From positions 1 through 64,000 of the forward strand of contig JAGBEG010000014.1 of assembly GCA_017937095.1 (NCBI GenBank): a stretch of 64,000 nt of DNA, read 5' to 3'. Position numbers and translations under genes: made by a program. The stretch's first letter is position 1. Each line of letters begins with the position of its first letter. This document shows, piece by piece, positions 2,766-50,638 of the stretch. Under the pieces are notes generated by a model that worked only from the letters and a program-made list of their open reading frames with translations, was not told the origin of the DNA and did not search any database. This DNA comes from Roseburia sp. (GTDB taxonomy: Bacteria; Bacillota; Clostridia; Lachnospirales; Lachnospiraceae).

Positions 2766-5219
2766 TTACTTTTCCCTCTCCTCAAAAACAATCGCATTTT
2801 TCTTCGTGGTAACAACGACTTCACTGCCCCTTTTTATGCTTCCGTCCAGAATCTTCTCTGCGAGCTTATCCTCGATTTCCTCCTGAATCTTGCGGCGCAG
2901 CGGTCTCGCTCCATATTTCGGCTCATATGCCTTTTCCACGATATACTGCTTTGCGGCATCGCGTATTACAAGCTGAATGCCAAGCTGCTCCTCGCAGCGC
3001 GCGGACAGCTCTTTTCCCATCAGTCCGACGATCTGCTTCATATCCTCTTTGTTCAGAGAACGGAAAACGATCGTCTCGTCGATACGGTTTAAGAACTCCG
3101 GTTTAAAGATCCGGCGCACTTCCTCCATGACGCTGCCCTTCATGCGCTCGTAATCCTGCTTCTCATTTTCCGTCGATGCAAATCCGAGTTTCTTCGGTTC
3201 TACAATTGCCTGTGCTCCGGCATTGGAGGTCATGATAATGATCGTATTCTTGAAATCGACCTTCCTCCCTTGCGAGTCTGTGATATGTCCGTCATCAAGC
3301 ACCTGAAGCAGGATATTGAATACATCCGGATGCGCTTTCTCGATCTCGTCGAAAAGGACGACAGAATACGGATTCCTGCGCACCTTCTCGCTGAGCTGTC
3401 CGCCATCCTCATGCCCTACATATCCTGGCGGTGAACCGATCATTTTAGAAACACTGTGCTTCTCCATATACTCCGACATATCGACCCGGATCATCGCCTG
3501 CTCCTGACCGAAAACAGCCTCCGCGAGCGCCTTGGAAATCTCCGTCTTGCCGACGCCGGTCGGTCCTAAGAACAGGAAAGAGCCAATCGGACGCTTCGGA
3601 TTCTTTAAGCCGACTCTTCCTCTGCGCACCGCCTTTGCCACGGCAGTCACAGCTTCCTCCTGTCCGATAACGCGCTGGTGCAGAGTCTTTTCCAATCTGC
3701 GCAGCCTTGCTGCCTCTCCTTCCGCCAGCTTCTTCACCGGAATCTTTGTCCAGTCAGAGACAACCTCCGCAATCTCATCCTCTCCGACTGCAAGACTCCT
3801 TCTGTGTCCTTCCCGCCTTGCCTTTGCCGCCAGTTTTTCCTGACGCTCTGTCAAAAGCTCCTTCTGCGCCTTTGCCGCGCGTGCGCTCTCGATATCGCCT
3901 GCAGAAAGCGCGTGCTCAAGCGCCGCCTCACTCTCCTTGATCTGCGCCTTTAATTCCGCAGCTTCACGCGGATCACCGCCCGCAAACAGACGCACCTTCG
4001 CCGCAGCCTCATCCATCAGATCGATTGCCTTATCCGGCAGAAATCGGTCGTTGATATAGCGCGCAGCCAGGCGCACCGAAGCCTCCACCGCCTCGTCTGT
4101 AATCGTCACCTGATGATGTTTCTCGTACTGGCTGCGCAGACCCTTTAAAATCAGCACAGCCTCCTCCTCCGATGGCTCCTCCACAACAACAGGCTGGAAG
4201 CGACGCTCTAACGCCGCGTCCTTCTCGATATATTTACGATATTCTTCAATCGTAGTCGCTCCAATGACCTGTACCTCGCCTCTGGCAAGCGCCGGCTTTA
4301 ATATGTTGGATGCGTCAATCGCGCCCTCCGCGCCGCCCGCGCCGATGATCGTGTGAATCTCATCAATAAACAGCAGGATGTTCCCCGCTTTTTTCACCTC
4401 GGCGATAATCTTCTTGATACGATCCTCGAACTCGCCGCGGTACTTGGAACCCGCAACAATCCCGGAAAGATCAAGGGAAACGACGCGCTTTCCAAGAACC
4501 GTGTCGGGAACCATGCCTGTTGTGATACGCTCCGCAATGCCCTCTACAATTGCAGTCTTTCCAACTCCCGGTTCGCCGATCAGGCACGGATTGTTCTTGC
4601 TCCTTCTGCTCAAAATCTGAATCACACGGTCAATCTCCGTCTCTCTCCCCACGACCGGATCGAGCGCGCCGCCCGCCGCAAGTTCTGTCAGATCTCTGGA
4701 ATACTGGTCAAGGAACGGCGTTCTGCCGGGCTCCTTCTTGCGCCCCGGCTTTCCGTTCTGAAAATCCTCTTTGTAAAGATTCGCATCCTCGCCCATGGCA
4801 ATCAGCGTATCTACGTACATTTTCTGAATATTCACCGAAAGCGTGTTTAACAGCCTCGATGCGACGCATTCCGTCTCCTTTATCATCGCAATCAGGATAT
4901 GCTCTGTTCCGATTTTCTCCGAATGAAAGCGGACAGCCTCTCTTCCCGCTCCCTCCAGCACACGCGCAGCGCGCGGGGAATATTCCCCCTCCTGCAAGGC
5001 GACCGGGGAAGAAGGCGCGATCAGTTCCTCAATCAGTTCCAGTACCTTTTCCGTTTCTACACCATTGTCACGCAGCACCTGACACGCTACACCGGTTCCC
5101 TCTTTCAAAAGTCCGAGCAGGATATGCTCTGTTCCGATGTAATTGTGATGCAGTGACCTTGACATTCGCGCGGCGATATCGACCGCTTTTTTCGCTTTCG
5201 CTGTATATGATGTCTGCAT
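2766..5219 (-). CDS. clpC: ClpC-type AAA+ unfoldase (Clp protease ATPase)
   Basis: ClpC unfolds substrates and feeds them to ClpP. The 817-residue protein has the whole layout: a duplicated Clp-N domain (about 1-150), a first AAA module with Walker A GEPGVGKT, a coiled-coil middle domain (about 400-470), and a second AAA module with GPTGVGKT and the GYVG pore loop. It ends with the D2-small domain. AGGAGG precedes the start. The usual Firmicutes neighbours ctsR, mcsA and mcsB are not upstream: the next gene is a surface protein. No CtsR or CIRCE operator was seen in the 63-bp gap. Confidence 0.96.
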
Positions 5220-9831: not shown

Positions 9832-10092
9832 TTAGCCTTCTTTCGACACCATATTCCGGTTAAAAATCAACAATGTTCCCCAGAGTATGCCGCCTAAGGT
9901 ACAGCCGATTCCGATGAGCGCCGCCGCATTGCACTCCTGAAAACGAATCCCCATAAATGCCGCCGTTCCCGCCACGATGCCGAACGCCCCGATTACCGCG
10001 ACCAATGCACATAACGCTACTGTCTCCATATCCACACGTTTCATCCTCTTTTTCTCCTTTTTCTCCTTTTTTGCCTGTTTCTCTCGTTTCAT
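9832..10092 (-). CDS. small basic two-TM membrane protein
   Basis: The 86-residue protein has a strongly basic N-terminus of about 20 residues, mostly Lys and Glu. Two hydrophobic helices follow (about 25-47 and 55-75), with a short positive end. I recognise no family. It starts three bases after the stop of the HAD-type gene, so the two are almost certainly translated from the same transcript. A 119-bp gap without a gene separates it from the glucosaminidase operon. Confidence 0.6.
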   Translation of the reverse strand: MKREKQAKKEKKEKKRMKRVDMETVALCALVAVIGAFGIVAGTAAFMGIRFQECNAAALIGIGCTLGGILWGTLLIFNRNMVSKEG

Positions 10093-24679: not shown

Positions 24680-25552
24680 TTATTCTTTCAGTCCCTTTAA
24701 TTTCTGCAGACCAAGAATCAGCGCCCCGCCGATTACAAAGAATAAAATATTAAATTCATGGATGGACATTGCCGGCTGCGGTACATCCAGTGTCGTCGGT
24801 CCCATGACGACCGCGTAAAGCGAACCCAGCATCAGACCGATAATCAGATAAATCGTCTGTGCGCGGAAATTCTCCAGCGCTTTTCGGATCAGCTTTACCA
24901 CGGAAAATACGCCGACAAGCACGCCGCAGCCAAAGATGAACACGGTCGGAAACGCTGCAAAATTCAAATGCAGAATGTCCTTGATCGCCGTGACGACCGG
25001 CAGATACAACCCCATGATAAGCAGCAGCGTAGACCCCGAAATGCCCGGAAGCACCATTGCGGAAATCGCGACCATACCCGCCACAAATACGAAAATGCCA
25101 AGTCCCGGCGTCAGATGCTCCAGATTCACGCCTTCCCCGCCGCCTGCCGGATTAAAATAGGTAATTGCACACACTACGATAATTCCAAGCAGTGCAAACG
25201 GAACCGCTCCCTTTTTCGCAAGCATACACTCCTTCTCTTCCTTTACTACGATCGGAATCGCAAAAATGATAAACCCGATAAACAGGGAACTGATTGCATA
25301 TATGTGGGACTCAAAAACGCTTGCTAAGACCAGCATGGCAAGCACCATGCCGCACACCCAGCCAATGCCGAGCTTGATCAAAAAGAACAGCGCTTTCTTC
25401 TTCTTCTCCATATTTCCGGTCATCAGATCGTCGATCGAATCAATGAACTGGTCATAAAAACCAAGCAGAAATGCGATCGTTCCGCCGGAAACGCCCGGAA
25501 CGCTGTCTGCCAATGCCATGCAGAAACCTCTGACAAACTGTACTACATACAT
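24680..25552 (-). CDS. DUF368 membrane protein, putative undecaprenyl-phosphate translocase (copy 1)
   Basis: The 290-residue, eight-or-more-helix membrane protein has the DUF368 signature near the N-terminus ([13 protein letters not shown]) and its mirror repeat later ([12 protein letters not shown]). DUF368 proteins of the PopT group are reported to return undecaprenyl phosphate across the membrane for wall synthesis. I chose the Met at 25552 because AAAGAGG lies seven bases upstream. It precedes the ABC exporter by 14 bp and is probably co-transcribed, so the exporter may belong to envelope biology too. A paralogue lies at 39129-40028. Confidence 0.9.
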   Translation of the reverse strand: MYVVQFVRGFCMALADSVPGVSGGTIAFLLGFYDQFIDSIDDLMTGNMEKKKKALFFLIKLGIGWVCGMVLAMLVLASVFESHIYAISSLFIGFIIFAIPIVVKEEKECMLAKKGAVPFALLGIIVVCAITYFNPAGGGEGVNLEHLTPGLGIFVFVAGMVAISAMVLPGISGSTLLLIMGLYLPVVTAIKDILHLNFAAFPTVFIFGCGVLVGVFSVVKLIRKALENFRAQTIYLIIGLMLGSLYAVVMGPTTLDVPQPAMSIHEFNILFFVIGGALILGLQKLKGLKE

Positions 25553-25631
25553 ATTCATACCTCTTTCTCTTAATTTTATGCTCACGCACCATTATAACGT
25601 TACTGCTTTCGGTTTGTCTATATTTTATTGC

Positions 25632-34902: not shown

Positions 34903-35406
34903 TCAAAGTACCTCCTTTTTTATCTGCGCAAGCCATGCGTCTATGTTCTTATCCGAAGTTACCAGTTCCGCGCCGCCCGTGGAGTCGAACTGTATCGCCA
35001 TCTCATGCGAAATGACCGCTCCTTTGCATATGCTCTTAATGTCGCTCATCACGTGGCCCGGCCATCCTCCATGCGTCTGAAACGGGATGATTTCCTTACC
35101 GTTCCAATCATAAGCTTTCAAAAAGGATAAAACTGCGGGCGCCATGGTATACCACCAGGTAGGCGTTCCTACGGCAATCACATCATAGTCTGCCGGATTT
35201 AAGGTCAGCGCTTCCAGTTCCGGCTGATACCCGCGGTTCACCTCGCGCTGTCCCTGATCTACGATCTCATTATAAGAGCCTGTATATGGCTTTACCGTCT
35301 CAATCCGGACAATATCCGCATCTGTGGCTTTCTGCATCCGCTCTGCAATCCGTCTGGTATTCCCATTTGATATCGAATAATATACAATCAGCATTTTCTT
35401 TTTCAT
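34903..35406 (-). CDS. flavodoxin-like protein, cytoplasmic (A)
   Basis: A flavodoxin-fold protein of about 167 residues. The FMN phosphate loop is near the N-terminus (YYSISNGNTRRIA, after MLIVY). The second loop is in the GTPTWWYTMAP segment (about 82-92), and the QTHGGWPGH region binds the ring. No signal peptide. It is the "flavodoxin-like, NAD(P)H-dependent oxidoreductase-type" group that works in stress and quinone reduction. The Met at 35406 follows AAGGAG by ten bases. A second flavodoxin lies 72 bp upstream in the same direction. Confidence 0.88.
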   Translation of the reverse strand: MKKKMLIVYYSISNGNTRRIAERMQKATDADIVRIETVKPYTGSYNEIVDQGQREVNRGYQPELEALTLNPADYDVIAVGTPTWWYTMAPAVLSFLKAYDWNGKEIIPFQTHGGWPGHVMSDIKSICKGAVISHEMAIQFDSTGGAELVTSDKNIDAWLAQIKKEVL

Positions 35407-35478
35407 TCTTTTCACACTCCTTACGCCTGCGGCTTTCATGCTCCGTAAAAATTCGTCATTGCCGTTATCTTCCTCTTC

Positions 35479-36006
35479 TTACTGCATATTGACGCTTGAA
35501 AATTCTTCCAGCCATCTTCGTATCTCCGGTTCCGAATGCCGGATGCTCCCTCCGCAAAGCGCCAGTCCTTTCTTTACCTTGGCATCGGGACATAACCGCC
35601 GGATATCCGATTCGCTGCGCCCCATCCCGCTGCCCTCATGCGTACAAAACGGGAGTATGGTCTTTCCGGAGAAATCGAAGTGCTCCAGAAATGTGAATAC
35701 CGCCATCGGCATCGTTCCCCAATAGTTTGGATAACCCAGATATACCGTATCGTATCCGTCTAAGCTTTCCGGATAGGTCTCTAGTTCCGGTCTTGCGTCG
35801 CGCCGCTGGTCCGCCTGCGCCTGCGCAATACATTCGTTGTAGTCTCTGGAATATTCCTGCACAGGCTGCATCTTAAAGATCTCTGCGCCTGTCAGTTTCT
35901 GAATCATATTCGCCGCGACCTCCGTATTGCCGACGGTCAGATTCTTAATCGCACCGCTCACATAGTTCTCATCCCTGCGTGAAAAATATACAATGATTGC
36001 CGCCAT
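35479..36006 (-). CDS. flavodoxin-like protein, cytoplasmic (B)
   Basis: A flavodoxin-fold protein of about 175 residues. It has the N-terminal phosphate loop in variant form (YFSRRDENYVSGAIKNL), the GYPNYWGTMP loop (about 88-97) and the CTHEGSGMGRSESD segment near 125. The start at 36006 has AAAGGAG eight bases upstream. It is divergent from a LysR gene; an 11-bp palindrome between them probably controls both. Confidence 0.88.
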   Translation of the reverse strand: MAAIIVYFSRRDENYVSGAIKNLTVGNTEVAANMIQKLTGAEIFKMQPVQEYSRDYNECIAQAQADQRRDARPELETYPESLDGYDTVYLGYPNYWGTMPMAVFTFLEHFDFSGKTILPFCTHEGSGMGRSESDIRRLCPDAKVKKGLALCGGSIRHSEPEIRRWLEEFSSVNMQ

Positions 36007-36054
36007 ATACCAAGCTCCTTTCCTGTTACTGCCCATATTATAAGCCCCGTGCGC

Positions 36055-36108
36055 TTGACAGAGAATCTCCGATTTGTTATCATCGTATATACCAAAAGTA
36101 TATACGAT
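36055..36108 (+). promoter_or_regulatory. LysR promoter with overlapping perfect palindrome
   Basis: TTGACA (36055-36060), a 17-bp spacer and TATCAT (36078-36083) make the plus-strand promoter. ATCGTATATAC-CAAAA-GTATATACGAT (36082-36108), a perfect 11-bp inverted repeat, covers the expected start site. It probably serves for autoregulation and for the divergent flavodoxin gene. Confidence 0.75.
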
Positions 36109-36124
36109 ACAGGAGGCGGTTTCC

Positions 36125-37012
36125 ATGTTCAATCATCATTTAACAGCCTTCGTCACTGCCGTAGACTGCGGCAGCTTTACCAAGGCAGCAGAGAAATTAT
36201 TTGTCACTCCGACCGCTGTTATGAAGCAGATCAATTCACTGGAAGCACATCTGAACCTGAAGTTGATAGAAAGGACCAGCCAGGGCGTCCGCCCGACGCC
36301 TGCCGGAGAAGTGATCTATAAAGATGCGAAATTTCTGTTCGACTTTTCAAAACGTTCCATTGAAAACGCAAAGCAGGCACAGAAAGCGTATGACAAGACC
36401 TTCTGTGTCGGCACTTCTTTACTGAACCCTGCGAAGCCGTTCATGGATCTGTGGTACAAGGTGGGCAGGCAATTTCCGGATTACAAATTACATTTAGTTC
36501 CCTTTGAGGACGACCACGAAGGTATTCTCTCTGAAATTGAACAATTGGGGGAAAAATTTGATTTTCTGCTCGCGGTGTGCGATTCAAAGCAGTGGCTCGA
36601 CCGGTGCAATATGCTGCCGCTTGGACGCTATCGGAAAATGTGCGCTGTTTCGCGCGAACACCGGCTGGCAGGCAAAAAGTATCTGACCCTGCCGGATCTG
36701 TATGGAGAAACTCTGATGATGGTAAAAGAAGGGGATTCCGAGGTGAACGATCTCATCCGAAGCGATCTTAGGAAAAATCATCCGGAAATCAGAATTGAAG
36801 ATACGCCCCAGTTTTATGATATTTCCGTATTCAACCGCTGTATCGAAACCGGAAATGTCCTGCTGATGTTAGAATGCTGGCAGGATGTACATCCCGCCCT
36901 CGTCAGCATTCCGGTACGCTGGGATTACAGCATTCCCTATGGGCTTCTCTACGCCCTGCACCCGCCCGAGGATGTGCAGAAATTCGTGGAGGCTGTAAGG
37001 CGTCTGGCATAA
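36125..37012 (+). CDS. LysR-family regulator (A)
   Basis: A LysR-type regulator of 295 residues with the N-terminal winged helix (about 1-60; SFTKAAEKLFVTPTAVMKQI) and a periplasmic-binding-like effector domain (about 90-290). The Met at 36125 has GGAGG eight bases upstream. Its product probably controls the divergent flavodoxin gene at 35479-36006. A candidate trigger is a redox-active or quinone-like compound, by analogy only. Confidence 0.9.
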   Translation: MFNHHLTAFVTAVDCGSFTKAAEKLFVTPTAVMKQINSLEAHLNLKLIERTSQGVRPTPAGEVIYKDAKFLFDFSKRSIENAKQAQKAYDKTFCVGTSLLNPAKPFMDLWYKVGRQFPDYKLHLVPFEDDHEGILSEIEQLGEKFDFLLAVCDSKQWLDRCNMLPLGRYRKMCAVSREHRLAGKKYLTLPDLYGETLMMVKEGDSEVNDLIRSDLRKNHPEIRIEDTPQFYDISVFNRCIETGNVLLMLECWQDVHPALVSIPVRWDYSIPYGLLYALHPPEDVQKFVEAVRRLA

Positions 37013-37074: not shown

Positions 37075-38763
37075 CTAAGAATTGGAAGCGACCTGAAATT
37101 TGCCGATCAGGCTCTCCAGATGCTCCGCCTGATTGCTCATTTCCTGACTTGCCGCCGCACACTCCTGTGAGGTCGCGGAGTTCGTCTGAACCACATCGTT
37201 GATATGGCTTACGCCGTCTTCCACCTGACCGATCGCAGCGACCTGATCCCTGAGCGCCTCTGCAATTCCACTGACCTCCGCTGTGATCTCCTTGGAGCCG
37301 GATACTACATTTTCAAGCTGCTGCGCCGTCTCATCCGCAATGACCATACCTTTCTCTACCGCCTTTACGGAGGACTCGATCAATACCGTAGATTCCTTTG
37401 CAGCCTCAGAGCTCTGCGCCGCCAGTACAGATACCTGATCGGCTACGACAGCAAATCCCTTGCCCGCTTCTCCCGCACGGGCAGCCTCAATGGAAGCATT
37501 TAACGCCAGCAGGTTTGTCTGGGATGCGATATCGTTGATTGTGGCAATGATCTTGCTGATTTCTCTGGAAGAAGCATTGATCTCGCCCATGGAATCTACC
37601 ATTTGCTGCATCTTGCCGTTGCTGTTGATGATCTCTGTTCCGAGATTTCCCACTCTCTGGCTGATATCCTTTGCATTTTCTGCATTCTGTGCCACACGCT
37701 CCGACACGCTCGTAAGTGTCGCCGACACTTCCTCCGTAATCGCCGCCTGATCTGTTGCGCCCTGCGCCAGATCCATAGAGCTTGCAGCTACCTGCTCCGA
37801 TCCTCCGGTTACCTGATCAGCCACCTGCTGGATTCCGGTTACCGTATCCGCCATGCTCTTCTCAAACAGAAGGAACGAATCCAGAATGTTTACGAAGTCT
37901 CCCTTCCATTCCACTTCCGGCTGCACGTTAAAGTTCCCCTGGGAGAACTTCTCCATGGATCTTGATATATCGTCTATGTAAGAACCCAGAATGCGGATGG
38001 ACTTACGCAGGCTGTGCGCCAGACTTCCGATCTCATCCTCCGAATGGTAATCCAGATTGCTGTGAAGGTTTCCTGCGGCGAGTTCCCCTGCCACATCCTC
38101 GATCTGATGAAGCGGCGTAAGAATCGACTGTACAATAATGCCGCTCACTTTCCTTGCGATCAAAGCTGCCGCAACAATAAAGACAACAATCATTGCCAAT
38201 CCCACGCCGAAAACGATCTGGCTGATCTTAACCGCCTTCGCCGCTTCCGCGTCAGTGATCTCGTCAAGCTCCTGTCCGATTGCAAGCGTACTGTCCAGTG
38301 CCGGCGTACACTTTGTCAGTACCATTTCTTCAGCTTCTTCCCTGTTTCCAGCCTCAACCTCTTCAATAATGGAATATCCGATATTTCCCCATTCATTCAG
38401 AGCCTGTGAATATTCCGCAAAAAGGCTTTCGTCTACCAATCCCGTTTCCTTGATGATCTGTAACTGGTCTCCCACTTCCGTCAACCGCTCTTCTACAGTT
38501 GTACGATAGCTGCTGTAGGTACTCGGATCATCGTTCAACACCATCTCGCGGATATTCCGCGCTGCAATATTAACATCAATCCGGCACACCTTTACCGCCG
38601 TGTCAGCTTTCTGCGCCCCATTTACGTAACCCGTAAATCTTCCGAACAGCACAGACAGGCATATAATGCTCAACACGCCCGAGAGTATCATTGTTCCGAT
38701 TACTAATGTGTAGCCAAATTCAATTTTCTTCTTCAACTTCATACTGTCTAATTTCTTAAACAT
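37075..38763 (-). CDS. methyl-accepting chemotaxis protein, 4HB sensor and HAMP
   Basis: The chemoreceptor is about 562 residues and of classical design: a TM (about 13-36), a four-helix-bundle ligand domain (about 38-185), a second TM (about 188-212) and a HAMP domain (about 215-265). The signalling domain (about 290-562) carries [20 protein letters not shown] at its tip. The start at 38763 has AAAGGA ten bases upstream. A promoter TTGACT-17-TAAAAG lies at 38841-38813. It is a single-gene unit. Confidence 0.94.
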
Positions 38764-38812
38764 TTCATACGCGTCCTTTCCTCTTTTTCTTCTCTTGTTT
38801 TTTTCTCTAGTA

Positions 38813-38841
38813 CTTTTAGCACATATTGAGAGCAAAGTCAA
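38813..38841 (-). promoter_or_regulatory. promoter of the 4HB chemoreceptor gene
   Basis: The minus strand has TTGACT (38841-38836), a 17-bp spacer and TAAAAG (38818-38813), about 50 bp before the start. A pyrimidine-rich tract follows in the leader. Confidence 0.5.
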
Positions 38842-38921
38842 TAGGATGCGATTAAAATAGCAGACAATTTTCCAGTATGATTTCACCCCAAAACACACAT
38901 CCTGTCTTTGAGGTGATCTGT

Positions 38922-39092
38922 ATGTACAACAACTTATCCGAGCTGCTCTGCGGCAGTTCCAGCACAAGCGCTTATTTTGTTTCCCTGCCGGTGTGGCTGC
39001 AAATCCTGCTCCATGAGGAACACCCCTATATCCACACCGCAGCGCAGCTCCATTTGATCGCGGATATTCTTCAAAAGCAGAAGAGACGGTAA
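38922..39092 (+). CDS. small conserved-looking protein, 56 residues
   Basis: The 56-residue frame starts with ATG at 38922 after GAGGTGAT, a strong ribosome site with five-base spacing. The sequence contains [13 protein letters not shown] and then a His-rich [10 protein letters not shown] helix. It recalls short Clostridia proteins with a YF-SLP-x-VQ motif, but that is a weak match. It stands alone on the plus strand between minus-strand genes. It may well be real because of the ribosome site. Confidence 0.5.
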
Positions 39093-39128: not shown

Positions 39129-40028
39129 CTACTCACTCCCTTCTTTCTCCTCTGCCATTCTTGTTTTGACCAGCGTCAGCCCTGCTACGATTGCCCCTCC
39201 CAGAATAAAATACAAAATATGAAACGACTGCATCGTCAGCGCGGGCTGTGGAACATCCAAAGTTGTCGGTCCCATTGCAATCGCGTAAAGAGAGCCGAGC
39301 ATCAGTCCCAGAATCAGATGTATCATCTGACAGCGATATTTTTCCATTCCGGTCTTGACCAGCCGGATGGTCGTGACAATTCCCGTAAGAATCCCTAATC
39401 CAAATACAACAAGAGTCGGGAAATACGCAAAATTGAAATGCAGAAATTCCCGGATCGCATTGATAATCGGAATATACAGCCCGAAAACCAATAACAGCGT
39501 TGAACCCGATATCCCCGGCAATACCATTGCGGAAATGGCGATCATCGCGGCAACAAACACATAAATGACCGTGACTACAGAAAAGTTTTCAATATCATAG
39601 GTTCTTGTTGCGCCGACTGCCTGATTCAGATAGGTAATCAATGATACGATCAATACCCCGATTCCGGTAAAAATCAGATTATAGTATTTATTGCCCAGTG
39701 TTTTATGCTCTTCCAGCAGTACGACAGGAATTGCAAACAGCGTCATCCCCATAAACAGGGAACTGAGCTCGTAGATATGCGTCTCGAACACTGCGCCTAG
39801 CAGAAGCACGGAGCCGCCGAAACCAATCACCCATCCGGCGGCAAGCCTGCCCAGAAAGATGACCGCTTCCTTCCGCTCCTGCCTGCTTCCACTGACAAGG
39901 GCATTCAATGAAAAAATAAACTTATCATAAAACCCCAGAATAAAAGCGATCGTTCCGCCGGATACTCCCGGCACGCTGTCGGCTAACGCCATGCAAAATC
40001 CCTGTACCATATTCCATAATACTTTCAT
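39129..40028 (-). CDS. DUF368 membrane protein, putative undecaprenyl-phosphate translocase (copy 2)
   Basis: The 299-residue, multi-pass protein has the DUF368 double signature ([13 protein letters not shown] near residue 10, [12 protein letters not shown] near 165). It is a clear paralogue of the protein at 24680-25552. PopT-type DUF368 proteins are reported to recycle the C55 lipid carrier. The start at 40028 has GAGG eight bases upstream. It lies 38 bp after the MotE-like gene and shares its two-component-controlled promoter, next to a PAP2 phosphatase operon. Confidence 0.9.
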
Positions 40029-40066
40029 CTTCCAAACCTCGATTCTAAACAATTATTCTTTGTCTC

Positions 40067-40954
40067 CTATTTTTCCATCCTGACTGTGAGTTCCGCCGCG
40101 TTGCTTACGCTCATTTTCGCCAGAATAGCGGCTCTCTGGTCCGGGGAAAGGTTTTCCAGTATCTTTACGACCAGATCTGTTTCATCCGGCATCATATTAT
40201 CAAATACGCCTGCTGCATCCTTCGGTTTCATCTGGGAATAGGTGTCCACGTAATCTGCCAGAGCTGCTTCCGCTTCTGCCTGCGCCGCTGCCTCCGTGTC
40301 CGCCTGTACCGCTGTATTTGTTCCCGGCTGCGCTCCTGCGCTTGTCGGCGTTCCTGTTCCTGCTGCGGCTCCCGTGTCTGCCTGCGTCGCCGCATTTGTT
40401 CCCGGCTGCATTCCTGCGCTTGTCGGCGCTCCTGTTCCTGCTGCGGCTCCCGTGTCTGCCTGCGCCGTCGCATTCGTTCCCGGCTGCGCTCCTGTTCCTG
40501 CTGCGGCTTCCGTGTCCGACTGTGCCGCCGCATTCGTTCCCGGTCGCGTTCCTGCGCTTGTCGGCGTTCCTGCTGCGGCTTCCGTGTCCGGCTGCGCCGC
40601 TACCTGCTCCGCCGCAATTTCAGCTTCCGTTTTTTTCTGCAGTTCTTTCGGAAGCACATTTCTTACAATCGGGACATCTGCAATGAGCGGAGCAAGTACA
40701 TCCGATGCAAAATTTCCTGCATCCATCCTGATGAAACCAAGCAACGCGCCAAAACATATGAGCATTGTAACTGCGAATGCAAATACGCACTTTCTCTTCC
40801 CTTCTGCTGTTCTGCCTCTCAGTTCATCCAGTTCTTCCTCCATTTCTCTTTTCTTTTTTCTCAGCTCGGCGATTTTTTCCTTCTCAGATGAACGCTCCTT
40901 TTGTGTCTCCTCACGAATCACTGTCTTTCTTTTCTGTGGCTGTCTGCGTGCCAT
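40067..40954 (-). CDS. single-TM protein with MotE/MgtE-N-like domain and repeat linker
   Basis: The protein of about 295 residues has a basic, coiled-coil N-terminus (1-54), a TM helix (about 57-76), a low-complexity linker of Ala/Gly/Thr/Gln repeats (120-224) and a C-terminal helical domain (about 232-295). That domain (KPKDAAGVFDNM...ENLSPDQRAAILAKMS) resembles MotE and the N-domain of MgtE. MotE is a flagellar motor chaperone, but no flagellar gene is near and the operon context is envelope, so the role is open. The start at 40954 has GGAGG nine bases upstream. It is the first gene with DUF368. Confidence 0.75.
   Translation of the reverse strand: MARRQPQKRKTVIREETQKERSSEKEKIAELRKKKREMEEELDELRGRTAEGKRKCVFAFAVTMLICFGALLGFIRMDAGNFASDVLAPLIADVPIVRNVLPKELQKKTEAEIAAEQVAAQPDTEAAAGTPTSAGTRPGTNAAAQSDTEAAAGTGAQPGTNATAQADTGAAAGTGAPTSAGMQPGTNAATQADTGAAAGTGTPTSAGAQPGTNTAVQADTEAAAQAEAEAALADYVDTYSQMKPKDAAGVFDNMMPDETDLVVKILENLSPDQRAAILAKMSVSNAAELTVRMEK
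40283..40597 (-). repeat. coding minisatellite in the MotE-like gene
   Basis: Residues 120-224 hold about four and a half copies of a unit up to 26 residues (78 bp) long with the core ADTGAAAGTG followed by PTSAG.QPGTN. Two copies are full and near-identical. Others lack the PTSAG part, so copy number and length look variable. Confidence 0.88.
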
Positions 40955-41035
40955 ATCACACTGCCTCCTCCTGATATATAAGTGTAGGGTTTTCACATAC
41001 AGGAATTTCAAAATCTTCCTGCCGCCTTCCCTTTG

Positions 41036-41090
41036 AGTATATAGCCACTTTCTAAACAACCGCGAATAAGACTCTAAACAAATTCTAAAC
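41036..41090 (-). promoter_or_regulatory. OmpR-type direct-repeat promoter of the MotE-like/DUF368 operon
   Basis: On the minus strand GTTTAGA occurs at 41090-41084, 41079-41073 and 41057-41051, so the boxes start 11 and 22 bp apart. Nine bases after the third comes TATACT (41041-41036) as -10. No good -35 is present, as expected for an activator site. The same layout precedes the PAP2 operon. Confidence 0.75.
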
Positions 41091-41128
41091 AAAAAAAAGA
41101 GAACCGTCCTGTAATCGACAGTTCTCTT
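41091..41128 (-). terminator. terminator of the PAP2-HK-RR-EamA operon
   Basis: On the minus strand AAGAGAAC pairs with GTTCTCTT with three further pairs (GTC/GAC), followed by a run of eight T. It lies 20 bp after the EamA-family stop and abuts the next promoter. Confidence 0.93.
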
Positions 41129-41148
41129 CACTACACCGTTTTTATTCC

Positions 41149-42009
41149 TTATAATAACATCACCAAAGTACCCGCCACGATAAGGACCAGCCCTGCAAAC
41201 GCCTTTTTTGTCAGTTTCTCTTTAAATACCACATAAGAAAAGGCGATGGAAACGACGATACTCAGCTTATCGATCGGCACAATCACACTGGCGGGTCCCG
41301 TCTGCAATGCCCGGTAATAGCACAGCCACGACGCACCGGTGGCAATTCCCGACAAAACAATAAACAGCAGTTCTTTCTTTTCCACGTTCTTTGCATCCTT
41401 CTGCTTACCCTTGACAAACACCACCAGCCATGCCATAAAAAGAACTACAATCGTCCGAATTGCCGTTCCCAGATTGGAATCCACACCGGATATTCCTATT
41501 TTCCCTAAAATAGACGTAAGACTGGCAAATACGGCTGACAAAACAGCGTATAGAAACCAGCCTTTTTTCGACTCTTTCGCTCCGTCACTCTCTTTCTTCT
41601 GAATCATCAAAAAGGTTCCTGCTCCAATTCCAATGATTCCCAGCAGCTTCCAGCGCGTAATTTCTTCCCCCAGAATCAGAAATGCAAGCAGAATCGTAAG
41701 CACCGTGCTGGATTTATCAATCGGCACGACCTTATTTACATCCCCAAGCTGCAATGCCTTAAAATAGCAAAGCCACGAAGCTCCTGTGGCAATTCCCGAC
41801 AGTATCAGAAATACCAATGTTCTTGCTTCGATGTCCGCAATACTGCCGCCCGTTCCTGTCACCGCGACCATCAGCCACGCAAAAATCAGCACCACAACGG
41901 TGCGGATTGCCGTCGCCACATCCGAATCCGTTTTTTTAATTCCGCATTTTGCCAGAATCGATGTAATTCCTGCAAAAAAGGCGGAACCTACCGCAAATCC
42001 AAACCACAT
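41149..42009 (-). CDS. EamA/DMT-superfamily transporter
   Basis: The 286-residue transporter has ten predicted TM helices from two EamA repeats. The halves resemble each other closely, with TSILAKCGIKK near the start and TSILGKIGISG near residue 160. Both contain the segment LSGIATGASWLCY. Substrates of this group vary (metabolites, small organic solutes). The Met at 42009 has AAGGA seven bases upstream. It is the last gene of the PAP2/two-component operon. Confidence 0.88.
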   Translation of the reverse strand: MWFGFAVGSAFFAGITSILAKCGIKKTDSDVATAIRTVVVLIFAWLMVAVTGTGGSIADIEARTLVFLILSGIATGASWLCYFKALQLGDVNKVVPIDKSSTVLTILLAFLILGEEITRWKLLGIIGIGAGTFLMIQKKESDGAKESKKGWFLYAVLSAVFASLTSILGKIGISGVDSNLGTAIRTIVVLFMAWLVVFVKGKQKDAKNVEKKELLFIVLSGIATGASWLCYYRALQTGPASVIVPIDKLSIVVSIAFSYVVFKEKLTKKAFAGLVLIVAGTLVMLL

Positions 42010-42032
42010 AAAACTGTCCTTCTTTCTTCTCG

Positions 42033-42752
42033 TTATTTCATATTCAAACGGTAACCGGCTCCCCATACGGTTTCGATTATCGTTGGATTCTTCGGATCGT
42101 CTTCTATCTTTTCGCGAATCCGGTTAATATGTACGGTCACCGTCGCGCTGTCCCCCACATAATCGTAGCCCCAGATCCGTTCAAATAACTGCTCCCTGGT
42201 AAAGACGATGTTGGGATTTAAGGAAAGGTATTTCAACAATTCAAATTCACGGTTCGGAAAATGAATCTCTTCCCCGTTTTTGATGACCTTCCAGCTTTTT
42301 GTCAGGATCTTCAACGAACCTATCTCTATGCTGTATTCCTCCGCATCAAACTCCCGCTCTTCCTGTACCGAGGTATTTTTCTTTGTGAGCCGTTCATACC
42401 GGAGCAGATGGGACTTCACACGGGCGACCAGTTCCGCCGGGTCAAAGGGCTTTACCACATAATCATCCGCTCCAAGCCCCAGCCCGCGTATCTTGTCGAC
42501 CGACTCCGTCTTCGCCGTCACCATCAGAATGGGGATATCCACCTTATCACGTATTTCCCGGCATATTTCGTACCCGCTCTTTCCCGGGAGCATAATATCC
42601 AGAATCAAAAGATCTATGCTCTCTTTTTCAAGTAACTGCATTGCCGTATGTCCATCCTCCGCAATGACAGCTTCATATCCGTAAATCTCCAGATAATCTT
42701 TCTCGAGATTCGCGATCTCCGCATCATCCTCAGCAATCAAAATCCGCGCCAT
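42033..42752 (-). CDS. OmpR/VanR-type response regulator
   Basis: The 239-residue regulator has a receiver domain (about 1-120; acidic pocket Glu8/Asp9/Asp10, phospho-Asp52, Thr and Lys in the VTAK motif) and a C-terminal winged helix (about 140-239). AGGAGG lies six bases before the ATG at 42752. It overlaps the kinase gene by 23 bp, so the two are coupled. OmpR-type proteins bind direct repeats at 11-bp period, which matches the boxes before its operon and before the MotE-like operon. Confidence 0.95.
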   Translation of the reverse strand: MARILIAEDDAEIANLEKDYLEIYGYEAVIAEDGHTAMQLLEKESIDLLILDIMLPGKSGYEICREIRDKVDIPILMVTAKTESVDKIRGLGLGADDYVVKPFDPAELVARVKSHLLRYERLTKKNTSVQEEREFDAEEYSIEIGSLKILTKSWKVIKNGEEIHFPNREFELLKYLSLNPNIVFTREQLFERIWGYDYVGDSATVTVHINRIREKIEDDPKNPTIIETVWGAGYRLNMK

Positions 42753-44229
42753 ATCGTTCCTCCTGCTGTTCTTCGTTTTCCGTCGTTTTCCCTTCCGCCG
42801 CCATTTCCGGCAGAGTAATCCGGATGTGCAGTCCGTTTTCGTTGTATGCCTGAATCTTTCCGTCGTGAGCCGCGACAATATACTGGCACACATATAAGCC
42901 AAGCCCGTTTCCGTCACACCGGCTTCCTCTCGCCTCGTCTCCGCGATAGAACTGTTCAAAGATGTGCGGCAGCTTGTCTTCCGGAACTCCTTTTCCATTG
43001 TCCGAAACTTCAATTATGATCTGCCCGTCACATCTTCCCAAACGGAAACAAATCAACAATGTCTCTGCTTTTTCTCCATATTTGATGCTGTTCTCGATCA
43101 GATTGTCAAATACTCTCGTAAACTGCTCTTTGTCCATACTGCAGCAGACGCCCGTCATATCCTCCGCTTCCAGAATGAGCGTTCCCTGCTGCATTTCCAG
43201 TTCCCTGCGTTTATCCGACACATACTGCTGCAGGAAGGCATCGATCCTTATTTTCTGCCGGAAGAACGGCATGTTTCCCGTTTCCAGTTTGGAAAAATAA
43301 AACAGCTTGGATAACAGCACATCCATATCACATGCTTTTTTGTACGCAACTTCAAGATATCTCCTGCGCTTTTCTTCCGTATTCGCAACCCCGTCCAGCA
43401 TCCCTTTGATATAGCCTTTCACCGAGGTGAGCGGCGTCCTTAAGTCATGGGAAATGCCGCTTACCATCTCTGTCCTTGCACGCTCATAAGCAGCGTTTCT
43501 CTCCATTCCCTCTTTTAAATTCTTCTGCATCAGATCAAAGCTGTCGCAAACGCTTTTAAACTCATCTTCCTGCTGGTAGTCAATGGGAACGGACAAGTCA
43601 CCGTCGCTGACCCTTTTTGCTGCAATGCTCAGTTCTTCCATCGGTTCTGAGATCTTTTGTATCAGATATCTGGTAAAAAGCTGGCTGCACAGCAGGATGA
43701 CGGCAATCGCCAACAGACCGATTACAAGAAATACAATCAGGAATGTTTCAAACATTCCGCGGTCCATTCCCCAGAAAGAAATATCCTCCGGGCAGCTTGC
43801 TGCGTATATGTCATAAATCACTCCATCCGCCTGACAACGTGTCACCAGAATTGTAACACCCTCGATCAGATAGCTGTCTATCCGGCCCGCCTTTTTATCC
43901 GCTGCGAGCACCGCCTCCACCGCTTCCCATTCGTTGAACTTCAGGTTCTCATAATACTTCTCGTCCGATTCTGTGGAAATATTGAGCCGGAAATCATATT
44001 CCGCCAGCGCATCTGCAAACGCATCCCAGTCGGCAGGGTATTCATCCGCGTTCTGCAACAAGTCCTGCACCTCATAAGTGTGTTCTGACAATCTTGATAT
44101 TCCGCCGTACCAGTCCAGGAACTCGCCCTTAAAGAGTGTGATAAGTCCTCCTCCCACTCCCAGCAGAATGATTAACGACACAAATACCATCATGGTATTA
44201 GCGTAAAATATCCGCTTCTTTATTGTCAT
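42730..44229 (-). CDS. sensor histidine kinase, envelope-stress type
   Basis: The 499-residue kinase has TM1 (about 9-33), an extracytoplasmic sensor of about 125 residues, TM2 (about 160-183) and a HAMP domain (about 185-240). The dimer domain follows with phospho-His261 (ISHDLRTPLTS). The ATPase domain has an N-box (NLIENSIKYG), G1 (DNGKGVP) and G2 (GNGLGLY). GGAGG lies five bases before the Met at 44229. It overlaps the PAP2 gene by 32 bp. The sensor has no named domain that I recognise. The operon partner suggests it reads wall-precursor or membrane stress. Confidence 0.94.
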   Translation of the reverse strand: MTIKKRIFYANTMMVFVSLIILLGVGGGLITLFKGEFLDWYGGISRLSEHTYEVQDLLQNADEYPADWDAFADALAEYDFRLNISTESDEKYYENLKFNEWEAVEAVLAADKKAGRIDSYLIEGVTILVTRCQADGVIYDIYAASCPEDISFWGMDRGMFETFLIVFLVIGLLAIAVILLCSQLFTRYLIQKISEPMEELSIAAKRVSDGDLSVPIDYQQEDEFKSVCDSFDLMQKNLKEGMERNAAYERARTEMVSGISHDLRTPLTSVKGYIKGMLDGVANTEEKRRRYLEVAYKKACDMDVLLSKLFYFSKLETGNMPFFRQKIRIDAFLQQYVSDKRRELEMQQGTLILEAEDMTGVCCSMDKEQFTRVFDNLIENSIKYGEKAETLLICFRLGRCDGQIIIEVSDNGKGVPEDKLPHIFEQFYRGDEARGSRCDGNGLGLYVCQYIVAAHDGKIQAYNENGLHIRITLPEMAAEGKTTENEEQQEERYGADFDC

Positions 44230-44776
44230 TCTTTCCTCCAAAATAAATGGATAATTGATTTACCGCGATTTCTGCCGCATAACTGATTCCGATTCCGCTT
44301 ATGGCGCCGCACAGAACATCACTCGGGTAATGTACGCCCAGATACAGCCGGGAAAGACCAATGAGCGCCGCCAGTATCACTGCCGGAATGCCAAACCGCC
44401 TGGGCAGCTTCCGGTACAGGATTCCTGCCGCCGCAAAAGAACTCGCCGTATGTTCTGACGGGAACGCATAGTCTGTGGGTTTCTCAATCAGCGGAATCAG
44501 ATTTCCGATGATGTCATACGGTCTGGTTCTTGCAACAAGATTTTTCAGGAACAGGTTATTAATCAACAATGACCCCATCAGCGAAAGTATTACCATACAT
44601 CCGATTTTTCGTGTTTTCTTAGGGAACAATAAAATAACCGCTATCCCTATCCATATCATACCGCCATCTCCAAGTTTTGTCACCACTATATTGAATGGCG
44701 TGAGAATCGGTCCCCGGATCACATCCTGTATAAACAATAAAAGAAACTTCTCTGCATTTACCAACGCTTCTATCAT
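44198..44776 (-). CDS. PAP2-family phosphatase, possible undecaprenyl-diphosphatase
   Basis: The 192-residue membrane protein has five or six TM helices and the PAP2 catalytic motifs: KxxxxxxRP as KNLVARTRP (about 73-81), PSEH as FPSEHTASS (about 100-108), and SRLYLGVHYPSD with catalytic His (about 141-152). In bacteria such proteins (BcrC-like) dephosphorylate C55-PP to C55-P and give bacitracin tolerance. The lipid here is inferred from context. AGAAGG precedes the start. It is the first gene of the two-component operon. Confidence 0.88.
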   Translation of the reverse strand: MIEALVNAEKFLLLFIQDVIRGPILTPFNIVVTKLGDGGMIWIGIAVILLFPKKTRKIGCMVILSLMGSLLINNLFLKNLVARTRPYDIIGNLIPLIEKPTDYAFPSEHTASSFAAAGILYRKLPRRFGIPAVILAALIGLSRLYLGVHYPSDVLCGAISGIGISYAAEIAVNQLSIYFGGKNDNKEADILR

Positions 44777-44810
44777 ACGCTTCCACCTTCTATCATTTTC
44801 TGATAGTGGA

Positions 44811-44865
44811 ATTATAGAAAATGACCCTAAATAGAAAGCTGTTCAAATATAAACAATTTATAAAC
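44811..44865 (-). promoter_or_regulatory. OmpR-type direct-repeat promoter of the PAP2/two-component operon
   Basis: On the minus strand GTTTATA lies at 44865-44859 and 44854-44848, and a weaker ATTTAGG at 44832-44826, so boxes start 11 and 22 bp apart. Nine bases later is the -10 TATAAT (44816-44811). The geometry equals that of 41036-41090. Confidence 0.7.
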
Positions 44866-44941: not shown

Positions 44942-45424
44942 TTACAGGTTCAATTCTTCCACCCATTTCTTCAAGGCATCTTCTGATATCCCTCCGTTCA
45001 GCATCCTTCCATTTAACAGGATCGCACCAGGACAGCTTGGCTTCAGTTTGTCATTTGTCCTGCCAAGACCACTTCCGCCGGAAGTCGCAAAAGGAATAAT
45101 CGTCTTACCGGAAAAATCATAGCTTTCCAGAAACGTATTGATGATGGTCGGGGCAACATACCACCAGATCGGAAAGCCCACAAAAATAACATCGTACTTT
45201 TCCATATCAGGCAGCCGCTCTGCAATCGCGGGCCGTGATGACGGGTCGTTCATCTCCACCGAGCTTCTGCTCTTTTTGTCCATCCAGTTCAGATCGGCGC
45301 TCGTATAAGGAACCTCCGGTCTGATTTCAAAGAGATCCGCGCCTGCCGCCTCCGCGAGCTTCCACGCCGCCTTTGCAGTTACACCGCTTGCTGAAAAATA
45401 CGCCACCAGAATTTTCTTACTCAT
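44942..45424 (-). CDS. flavodoxin-like protein, cytoplasmic (C)
   Basis: The 160-residue flavodoxin-fold protein has the FMN loop [16 protein letters not shown] (about 9-24), a [10 protein letters not shown] loop (about 78-87) and the ring-binding [10 protein letters not shown] (about 112-121). There is no signal peptide. It is closely similar to the soluble part of the lipoprotein flavodoxin at 46960-47688, including the DLNWxDxxSR-SxEMND segment. GGAGG precedes the ATG. It follows the MATE gene by 50 bp, in the same direction. Confidence 0.9.
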
Positions 45425-46959: not shown

Positions 46960-47688
46960 TCATTCTCCCAGATTCAGACCGAGGCTGTTTACCCACTCCA
47001 TAACCGCATCCTGAGAGTCGCTGCCATTCAGTCGCCGTCCATCAAGCCACGTAGCTCCGCTGGTAAGCTGTTCCAGATTGGCTGCACTGGAACCAACACC
47101 GCTGCCGCCGGACGTGCAGAAGGGAACAATGGTCTTACCGGAAAAGTCATAGCTTTCCATGAAGGTGCTGACAATTCTCGGTGCTTCTCCCCACCAGATG
47201 GGATAACCGAGAAATACAATGTCATACTGATCCATGTTATCTACGGAACCGGAAATGGCGGGGCGGGCAGACGGATCGTTCATTTCGATCGTAGTACGGC
47301 TGTTGTTATCATTGTAGTTAAGATCAGCATCGGTATAAGGCTCTTCCGGTACAATCTCGTAAAGGTCTGCGTTCAGACCATTCGCGATATGTTCCGCCAC
47401 GCCTTTGGTAGTACCAGTGGCAGAGAAATAGGCTACCAGTACCTTTGTACCTTCCGTTTCGTCGGGCTGCGTCACTTCGGTTTCCGGCTCGGATTCCTCT
47501 TCAGCGGGCTGCGTCACTTCGGTTTCCGGTTCGGATTCTGCCGCGCCGCTTTCCGGTACAGATGTTTCTTCCGATACGCTGCTCTCCGTATCAGGGGAAC
47601 TTGTTTTGGCCGGGGTGCTATTTCCGGCGCACGCCACAAGGGATACGGCCATCAAAAGAGTAAGTAAAAGAGCTGCAAATTTCTTCAT
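46960..47688 (-). CDS. surface lipoprotein flavodoxin (D)
   Basis: The protein is about 242 residues. A lipoprotein signal peptide ends in a lipobox (SLVAC, Cys at about 20). A Ser/Glu/Pro/Thr linker (about 21-78) follows, with a 14-residue unit SEPETEVTQP repeated twice (42-bp DNA repeat at about 47464-47545). The flavodoxin domain (about 84-240) has YFSATGTTKGVAEHIA, GYPIWWGEAP and TSGGSGVGSS motifs. Most flavodoxins are cytoplasmic, so this is unusual. The Met at 47688 has GGAGG seven bases upstream. It is the fourth gene of a MerR-like fragment/cupin/CMD operon. Confidence 0.88.
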   Translation of the reverse strand: MKKFAALLLTLLMAVSLVACAGNSTPAKTSSPDTESSVSEETSVPESGAAESEPETEVTQPAEEESEPETEVTQPDETEGTKVLVAYFSATGTTKGVAEHIANGLNADLYEIVPEEPYTDADLNYNDNNSRTTIEMNDPSARPAISGSVDNMDQYDIVFLGYPIWWGEAPRIVSTFMESYDFSGKTIVPFCTSGGSGVGSSAANLEQLTSGATWLDGRRLNGSDSQDAVMEWVNSLGLNLGE

Positions 47689-47762
47689 TGTTTTTCCTCC
47701 AATCTTTATATGAACCGACCCCGAGGTTTCCGGTTCCGTATCGACCATTTCATGTTTTCACC

Positions 47763-49882: not shown

Positions 49883-50638
49883 TTAATACCCAAGACCGTG
49901 CAGCCATTCCTCTACATCGGCTGCCACATCAGATACCGCTGCGGCGGCTGTTTCATGGCTGACCGTAAATCCATCGGAAATCACTGTCGCATCCAGTTCC
50001 AGCTCCTGAATCGTGTCGGGTGTTCCGGAAAGGCGGCTGCCTCTGTGAACATCGAAGGGAATAATCGTCTTGCCAGAGAAATCATATTCGTCAAAGAAGC
50101 TGTACATCACCTGGGGAAGGTCATACCACCACAATGGATAGCCCACAAAAATCGTGTCATATTCGTCGAGATTCTCAATATGCGAGGTCAGCTCCGGACG
50201 TTCATCGTTATCCTGTTCCACGGACGCATATTCAATCAGATCATTGATGTCACCCGGATAGTCTACCGAGGTTTCGATGGAAAACAGATCACCGCCTGTG
50301 ACCGCCTGAATGTCCTCCGCTACCGTCCGGACCAGACCCTTTGCTTCGCCACTTACCTCCGTGACACTGGCTGAGGAAATGGCATCCACATCGCTGTTTT
50401 CAGCGACCGCAAAATAGGCAATGAGAACCTTTCCTGTCCCTGTGTTCTCTGCGTTTCCAACGCTCTCTGTACTGTTTTCTCCATTGTCCTGCAAATCCTG
50501 CACACTGCCCTCTACAGCCTGATTTGGCTCTGTCTGTGTGGACGAATCATTCGCGTTGTCAGAATCATTCGCTGCCCCGCAGGCCGTCAGCCCAAGCATC
50601 AGTGCAGCAGTTAAGGCAAATATAGTTTTTGTTTTCAT
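49883..50638 (-). CDS. surface lipoprotein flavodoxin (E)
   Basis: The 251-residue protein begins with a lipoprotein signal peptide with lipobox (GLTAC, Cys20). An Asn/Asp/Ser/Thr-rich linker (about 21-70) and a flavodoxin domain (about 72-250) follow. The phosphate loop is extended and changed (AENSDVDAISSASV between IAYFAV and later residues). GYPLWWYDLP and DVHRGSRLSGT correspond to the other FMN loops. It lies 20 bp after an aldo/keto reductase gene in one operon, so a cytoplasmic reductase and a surface flavoprotein are co-expressed. Confidence 0.85.
   Translation of the reverse strand: MKTKTIFALTAALMLGLTACGAANDSDNANDSSTQTEPNQAVEGSVQDLQDNGENSTESVGNAENTGTGKVLIAYFAVAENSDVDAISSASVTEVSGEAKGLVRTVAEDIQAVTGGDLFSIETSVDYPGDINDLIEYASVEQDNDERPELTSHIENLDEYDTIFVGYPLWWYDLPQVMYSFFDEYDFSGKTIIPFDVHRGSRLSGTPDTIQELELDATVISDGFTVSHETAAAAVSDVAADVEEWLHGLGY

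Follow-up and report, generated by a model that had tools for sequence, protein, structure and literature searches.

Two neighbouring operons on the minus strand of a 64,000-nucleotide stretch of Roseburia sp. DNA (the window) are headed by promoters of one and the same architecture, and we think that both are very probably activated by the OmpR/PhoB-type two-component system encoded in the first of them, which would thereby regulate itself and have the recycling of the polyprenyl carrier lipid as its output. The promoter architecture, its conservation, the targets by position and the association with this regulator were computed here. The window lies on contig 11 of an assembly of 3,891,284 bases (3.89 Mb) that is 94.57% complete. 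In the order of the minus strand, the PAP2-kinase-regulator-EamA genes (44776 down to 41149) are followed by the MotE-like-DUF368 genes (40954 down to 39129), and the locus has the following features:

44811..44865, minus strand: promoter of the PAP2-kinase-regulator-EamA operon (half-sites 44865-44859, 44854-44848 and 44832-44826; -10 element TATAAT at 44816-44811)
44198..44776, minus strand: PAP2 phosphatase, undecaprenyl-pyrophosphate phosphatase-like (Pfam PF01569, 84 bits)
42730..44229, minus strand: sensor histidine kinase (Pfam HisKA, HATPase_c and HAMP; relatives 47-51% identical)
42033..42752, minus strand: OmpR/PhoB-type response regulator, proposed activator of both promoters (Pfam Response_reg and winged-helix Trans_reg_C)
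41149..42009, minus strand: EamA transporter (Pfam PF00892, 138.9 bits)
41096..41129, minus strand: terminator-like hairpin between the two operons (terminator scan and folding)
41036..41090, minus strand: promoter of the MotE-like-DUF368 operon (half-sites 41090-41084, 41079-41073 and 41057-41051; -10 element TATACT at 41041-41036)
40067..40954, minus strand: MotE-like protein (MgtE_N 22.6 bits, under the Pfam cut-off of 25.9)
39129..40031, minus strand: DUF368 protein, PopT-like undecaprenyl-phosphate translocase (PF04018 173.8 bits, cut-off 26)

The PAP2 promoter (44865-44811) reads GTTTATA, GTTTATA and ATTTAGG with spacings of 11 and 22 bp, followed after 9 bp by TATAAT, and the MotE-like promoter (41090-41036) reads GTTTAGA, GTTTAGA and GTTTAGA with the same 11 and 22 bp, followed after 9 bp by TATACT. 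A first-pass annotation of this DNA had described exactly these boxes and this gap at both operons, and its description proved exact, as both promoters fit the 55-column pattern GTTTADA-N4-GTTTADA-N15-DTTTAG-N10-TATANT with 0 mismatches. It had also asked whether the box pattern might occur at chance frequency across the genome; the scan returned these two matches only, and allowing up to 3 mismatches brought up no third one, neither within the window, where shuffles had a mean of 0.00, nor across the whole assembly. A position matrix was built from 21 training sites in relatives, with no window sequence among them, although the sites themselves had been found with a window-derived pattern. 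It ranks the two promoters first and second in the window with 49.6 and 33.0 bits, the next site having 5.9 bits and the maximum over 30 block-shuffled windows being 15.6 bits. A sigma-70 consensus scan gave 8 sites versus 8.2 in shuffles and detected neither array promoter, as expected because both would be activator-dependent promoters with a poor -35. A lone GTTTAGA near 40045, before the DUF368 gene, has no adjacent second half-site and was judged to be chance.

The array is best understood as a tandem of two 11-bp dimer sites at a distance of 22 bp, the third half-site being degenerate. If the -10 element is placed at -12, the half-sites come to lie at about -61, -50 and -28 with the degenerate slot at -39, and box 3 sits between the -35 and -10 positions. 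By eye, an 11-bp repeat occupies the -39 slot in loci L149 and L150, which belong to distant genomes of one genus. At the sequence level, the target promoters have half-sites in direct repeat with the 11-bp spacing that marks the targets of OmpR/PhoB-type regulators. Sites of the OmpR/PhoB family are direct repeats; those of PhoP consist of 7-bp units separated by 4 bp, to which the protein binds in the form of a tandem dimer (PMC4832192; this and the other papers are cited here from the available parts of their text). The array shares this repeat design with the tandem-dimer sites of the PhoB/PhoP type but differs from them in its core, which is of the GTTTAKA type, and in the degenerate half-site between two dimer sites.

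Conservation was assessed in 25 loci from 24 genomes (one with two loci), which were selected by kinase homology and none for its array. The set holds the 15 best-scoring family genomes (E values up to 1.9e-66; of the 41 genomes with a match, those with weaker scores were omitted), the paralog from the window's own genome, the window itself, 3 of 4 loci from another kinase list, 5 other genomes and G684. One locus identical with G182 replaced it in the count, and L006, with a 72-residue match, was omitted. Arrays were already known in several of these loci before the spacings were counted. When 99 spacings were compared as a grid, the 11/22 combination was found without mismatch in 9 loci (13 arrays) and with up to 1 mismatch in 18 loci (24 arrays), and the other 98 spacings reached at most 1 and 2 loci, respectively. 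The -10 element was absent from the criteria of this search, and TANNNT begins 49 bases past the start of box 1 in all 24 arrays, with any other offset from 40 to 61 being occupied in at most 4 of them. A relaxed core that requires the -10 adds L043, L046 and L049, bringing the count to 21 of the 25 loci, and has 0 matches in 1.13 Mb of shuffled sequence. The same architecture lies upstream of PAP2-kinase operons in G026, G182, G050 and G037. In the G050 locus (L040, G050:C39) no regulator gene was called beside the PAP2-kinase operon and its array; the regulator may be elsewhere or lost.

The pattern with the -10 was further scanned over 397 family genomes, which gave 12 matches in 10 genomes and 0 for the reversed pattern. 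As the pattern was written after sites were known in the window, G026, G037, G050, G091 and G182, and after a looser scan, the matches are not all independent discoveries: G728 first appeared in the 397-genome scan, and G182:C22, G050:C41, G228, G241 and G110 first appeared in the looser one. The kinase is found at E <= 1e-60 in 8 of the 10 matched genomes (that of the window included) versus 41 of 200 genomes in an even draw. The match in G110 lies in an AT-rich repeat and that in G241 points to the 3' end of a TetR gene; neither comes with the kinase or a sensible target, and both were judged by eye to be chance. A relaxed pattern lacking the -10 gave 32 matches in 299 genomes versus 23 for its reverse, which is near noise, and it served only to choose places. 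Over 245 genomes of the class, 7 matches were found in 6 genomes (reversed control 0), namely the 2 in the window, 1 at a known locus in G513, 1 in G321 and 3 in family f14. The G321 site precedes an ABC transporter and adjoins another copy of kinase and regulator.

A further link between promoter and regulator is that the box sequence largely appears to follow the recognition helix of the adjacent regulator. L053 (the paralog from the window's own genome), L045, L051, L049 and L151 form a clade with support 99/98 in a tree of 22 regulators. These clade regulators read SDAATVSVHINRLR in 5/5 cases in a stretch that we take to be the recognition helix. The 17 regulators outside the clade have GD at the first two places in 17/17, S after TV in 0/17 and NRIR in 16/17. 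An A at base 6 (TTTAA) of boxes 1 and 2 occurs in 7/8 boxes beside clade regulators versus 5/46 beside the others. According to a tally made after the fact, the regulators of G026 and G159 differ from 13 others at the place after TV, having A and M there instead of T, and the A at base 6 is found in 0/36 boxes when T follows TV and in 12/18 when it does not. This would fit a regulator that directly reads the boxes beside its own gene, the independent cases being few. L053 itself belongs to a kinase-regulator pair that is paralogous to that of the window and lies in the same genome (G000:C15:1-16000), in which a TTTAAA-type array at 4459 (minus strand) lies upstream of a HlyD-type protein and an ABC gene, and its helix differs from that of the window's regulator at the places that separate the two clades.

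It has to be considered that the boxes might be read by another OmpR-family regulator, in which case the architecture would be generic and its link with this pair incidental. Repeats of 11 bp are usual in the OmpR/PhoB family, a related promoter is present at the paralogous system G000:C15, in three f14 genomes the pattern goes with a regulator that is more distant, and the boxes of the DUF368 array of G026 are of the type seen in the other clade. Nevertheless, with the kinase present in 8 of the 10 genomes of the family scan, with the G110 and G241 sites looking like chance, and with a box type that largely tracks the helix of the adjacent regulator, we regard this explanation as quite improbable. 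The spacing grid, the fixed -10, the co-occurrence with the kinase and the link between box and helix make the regulator at 42033-42752 the likely partner of both promoters. The first-pass annotation had gone further and let it control both operons; the partnership is thereby upheld as likely, and the control itself stays putative.

The proposed carrier-lipid output is in line with the published recycling route, in which PAP2 proteins dephosphorylate the pyrophosphate outside and DedA and DUF368 proteins return undecaprenyl phosphate (PMC12826051, PMC10216114). Target genes were collected from 30 instances in relatives, which were hand-chosen from kinase loci and pattern matches and include some relaxed or 2-mismatch arrays; the two promoters of the window, G091 (contig end), G083, G110, G241 and the three f14 loci were omitted. 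In 16 of the 30, from 11 genomes, the downstream gene run holds PAP2, DedA/VTT (UptA-like) or DUF368 (PopT-like) genes; PAP2 and DUF368, for which the annotation had put forward a lipid-carrier function, recur as targets in relatives, and DedA joins them. G026 has separate arrays before PAP2-kinase-regulator, before GT4-DedA-GT4 and, with one mismatch, before DUF368. On contigs other than that of the kinase, an array precedes GT4-DedA-GT4 in G182 and a DedA gene in G050. In G728 an array lies directly past the regulator gene and leads into a DedA gene, and in G556, which belongs to another family, DUF368 is preceded by an array with one mismatch. One GT4 protein scores above the NCBIfam cut-off for the IagA/BgsA lipoteichoic acid (LTA) glycolipid anchor family (465.8 versus 460). 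A 2-mismatch array upstream of DUF368 in G083, a genome that lacks the kinase, was not counted as an instance and is among the 21 training sites of the matrix. Outside the family, L004 from Paenibacillus auburnensis has divergent arrays at 9878 (minus strand) and 9906 (plus strand), of which one stands before the kinase-regulator operon; the other has one mismatch and leads into a gene resembling X-Pro dipeptidyl-peptidase.

Several observations weigh against the proposed system. Even with the relaxed core, no array was found in 4 of the 25 kinase loci, of which L151 is truncated by a contig end upstream of the kinase, L047 holds broken genes, and L048 and L148 are plain negatives. The distribution within the genus is patchy, with a kinase match below 1e-80 in 1 of 49 other genomes. 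Of the 30 instances, 14 lead to genes other than PAP2, DedA or DUF368: ABC/efflux-type genes, P-type ATPases, GT2/GtrA-NAGPA (an operon that carries an array in G228), a peptidase, a second kinase, a HlyD-type gene, or kinase and regulator alone or with other genes. Among 24 other DUF368-bearing family genomes, DUF368 shares a run with the kinase in 4 (G026, G159, G176 and G177), and the DUF368 neighbourhoods of 20 further loci were without this kinase; among these, G162 and G002 have other two-component genes near DUF368, and in G181 PAP2 adjoins it. The second DUF368 gene of the window (24680-25555, minus strand) had no promoter array in the matrix scan of the window. The link between box and helix has exceptions outside the clade in G026 (4/6 boxes with A, including both of the DUF368 array) and G159 (1/2). 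Finally, three genomes of another family, f14, show the same architecture at ABC-kinase-regulator operons with a more distant regulator: at L205:6786, L206:7126 and L207:6551 (plus strand) the 11/22/9 promoter is followed by a 303-320 aa protein with no Pfam match and by the ABC, kinase and regulator genes. The 11/22/9 geometry is therefore not peculiar to carrier-lipid genes.

Of the genes just mentioned, the second DUF368 of the window is 54% identical to that of the operon (PF04018 195.3 bits). Locus L047 (G176:C36) is a kinase-regulator-EamA-DUF368-MotE run in which the regulator and DUF368 frames are in pieces, through decay of the copy or through sequencing errors.

Since a terminator-like hairpin intervenes, the two operons look like separate units. 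It is located at 41129-41096 on the minus strand, between EamA and the second promoter, and its 53-nt fold has a minimum free energy (MFE) of -19.4 kcal/mol (z -4.08); its T-run directly abuts box 1 of the MotE-like-DUF368 promoter. Overall, the terminator scan found 7 terminators versus 5.6 expected. A further rival idea is that only the first operon is regulated and that MotE-like-DUF368 is expressed by read-through or as part of a flagellar programme. This idea gains from the MotE-like protein being a paralog of flagellar MotE/YlxF and from the 7 flagellin-domain matches in the genome. Against it, the hairpin separates the operons, the second promoter, which includes a -10, has 0 mismatches and the second-highest score of the window, and in G026 and G556 an array with one mismatch stands before DUF368 itself. 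We consider it hardly credible, and it is the least probable of the explanations weighed here.

The flagellar kinship of the MotE-like protein is seen in residues 224-294, which are 50% identical to a copy in the same genome that is encoded between the FliJ and FliK genes (L199:6047-6886, G000:C7; MgtE_N 25.0 bits, also under 25.9), the usual place of the MotE/YlxF gene (PMC13023049). The window homolog is not adjacent to fliJ or fliK; unlike flagellar MotE/FlgY/YlxF (COG3334), it is encoded with DUF368 under an array promoter. Matches to it were found in 44 of 200 family genomes; by far the closest is that of G176, which is also beside DUF368 and has broken reading frames. As a new member of the module, as which it had been suggested together with EamA, the MotE-like protein, a flagellar paralog that lies close to DUF368 in this one other genome, is weakly supported. 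The suggestion holds better for EamA, of which an ortholog adjoins the regulator in four other genomes (G159, G176, G104 and G684). The EamA protein has ArnF/ArnE matches under the NCBIfam cut-off, and other transporter families match more strongly, also under cut-off. From these weak ArnE/ArnF matches among several weak transporter matches one might guess that it transports a lipid-linked sugar.

The PAP2 translation contains KNLVARTRP, PSEH and SRLYLGVHYPSD, which we take to be the three catalytic motifs of PAP2 proteins, and all three are present. The equivalog scores of known phosphatases are not reached: the best NCBIfam match, SepP, has 87.5 bits (cut-off 250), and PRK11837 has 43.4 (cut-off 229). 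The DUF368 protein has 151.4 bits against NCBIfam PopT and is named PopT-like rather than PopT because the equivalog cut-off of 400 is not reached. Kinase and regulator have the domains of an OmpR/PhoB-type two-component system (Pfam); HDLRTP is invariant among 19 aligned kinases, and the part of the kinase ahead of residue 189 is without a Pfam match. The PAP2 and kinase genes overlap by 32 bp and the kinase and regulator genes by 23 bp. Sequence searches of the PDB returned general homologs only for kinase, regulator and PAP2, and nothing for DUF368. Elsewhere in the window, the next large same-strand gene after DUF368 encodes a methyl-accepting chemotaxis protein (37075-38967, minus strand), and five Flavodoxin_4 proteins are encoded within 16 kb, all on the minus strand (34903-35439, 35479-36132, 44942-45424, 46960-47748 and 49883-50638); two of these have a long N-terminal extension that by eye resembles a lipoprotein signal.

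In the mechanism that we propose, the kinase would sense a putative envelope signal, and the phosphorylated regulator would bind the two tandem dimer sites just upstream of the -10, with half-sites at about -61, -50, the degenerate -39 and -28 relative to putative start sites. It would then activate its own operon, in a positive autoregulation, and the MotE-like-DUF368 operon. PAP2 would convert undecaprenyl pyrophosphate on the outside to undecaprenyl phosphate, and DUF368 would flip the latter back inside, both substrates being putative, so that the polyprenyl carrier lipid would be recycled to a greater extent. Promoters of this kind in relatives lead into genes of the other known translocase family (DedA/VTT) and of glycolipid-type glycosyltransferases.

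Described systems offer several points of comparison. HexRK-hexSDF of Clostridioides difficile and YrkPQ of Bacillus subtilis are, like the system here, two-component systems with about 120 extracytoplasmic residues in the kinase; their regulon is a small one of lipid and membrane genes, as it may be here. The YrkP regulon includes a predicted C55-P-Glc glucosyltransferase (PMC10128005), and ykcBC lies within the YclJ and YrkP regulons (PMC5836110). As to regulon size, two motif sites are present in our assembly, and targets in relatives are given by position only. Unlike those of HexRK and YrkPQ, the targets here are PAP2, DUF368, DedA and EamA, a comparison made by description only, and the gene order differs as well: hexK follows hexR, whereas here the kinase comes after PAP2 and is followed by the regulator. 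This resemblance leads to a rival view, in which the system is primarily a glycolipid or antimicrobial-peptide response of the HexRK/YrkPQ kind, with the carrier-lipid genes as part of a wider membrane programme and membrane perturbation, not carrier shortage, as the signal. HexRK controls glycolipid synthesis and affects daptomycin resistance, the YrkP regulon is small and mostly concerns lipids and the membrane (PMC10128005), and the targets here include GT4 pairs (one above the IagA/BgsA cut-off), GT2/GtrA, ABC transporters and P-type ATPases. As the likeness to HexR/YrkP is one of description only, and as PAP2, DedA or DUF368 are found in both window operons and in 16/30 instances, we think that this view is possible but rather unlikely.

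Carrier-lipid recycling as the output finds a functional counterpart in SigM with YhdL/YhdK of Bacillus subtilis, which raises recycling (bcrC, uptA) at low undecaprenyl phosphate (PMC11081497). SigM is an alternative sigma factor, whereas the regulator here is a response regulator with a histidine kinase. DraRS of Clostridioides difficile is likewise a two-component system; it answers some lipid-II-binding antibiotics and reaches glycolipid and envelope genes, but the available part of the commentary PMC10601699 names no carrier-lipid recycling genes for it, and again the comparison is by description only. A search of the open-licence literature by titles and abstract openings gave, among the matches listed, no paper on two-component control of DUF368 or on this box pattern; the published binding sequence of YrkP stood outside this comparison. 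The best reading of the locus would be an envelope system of the OmpR type that resembles HexRK/YrkPQ, works like SigM and has carrier-lipid recycling as its recurrent output. Judged from sequence, the earlier interpretation as a whole is partly supported.

A bolder version, which we offer tentatively and hold to be somewhat doubtful, is that the two-component system is a dedicated one for which the state of the carrier lipid as such is the input. It would induce together the pyrophosphatase PAP2, the undecaprenyl-phosphate translocases of the two known families (DUF368 and DedA) and the synthesis of glycolipid anchors. Clostridia-like bacteria would then have a counterpart of SigM that is built on a kinase and whose promoter is kept as far as Paenibacillus; in one branch, a protein paralogous to one of the flagellar ring would have been recruited next to the translocase. 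The sharing of the scarce carrier lipid is an outstanding question, for which SigM is the described Bacillus subtilis case; pathways of a similar kind are expected to be widespread (PMC11081497). The locus and its relatives supply a concrete candidate regulator, a precise promoter rule and a list of targets, with which this question becomes testable in other Bacillota, and they tie the DUF368 and DedA translocases to one type of promoter.

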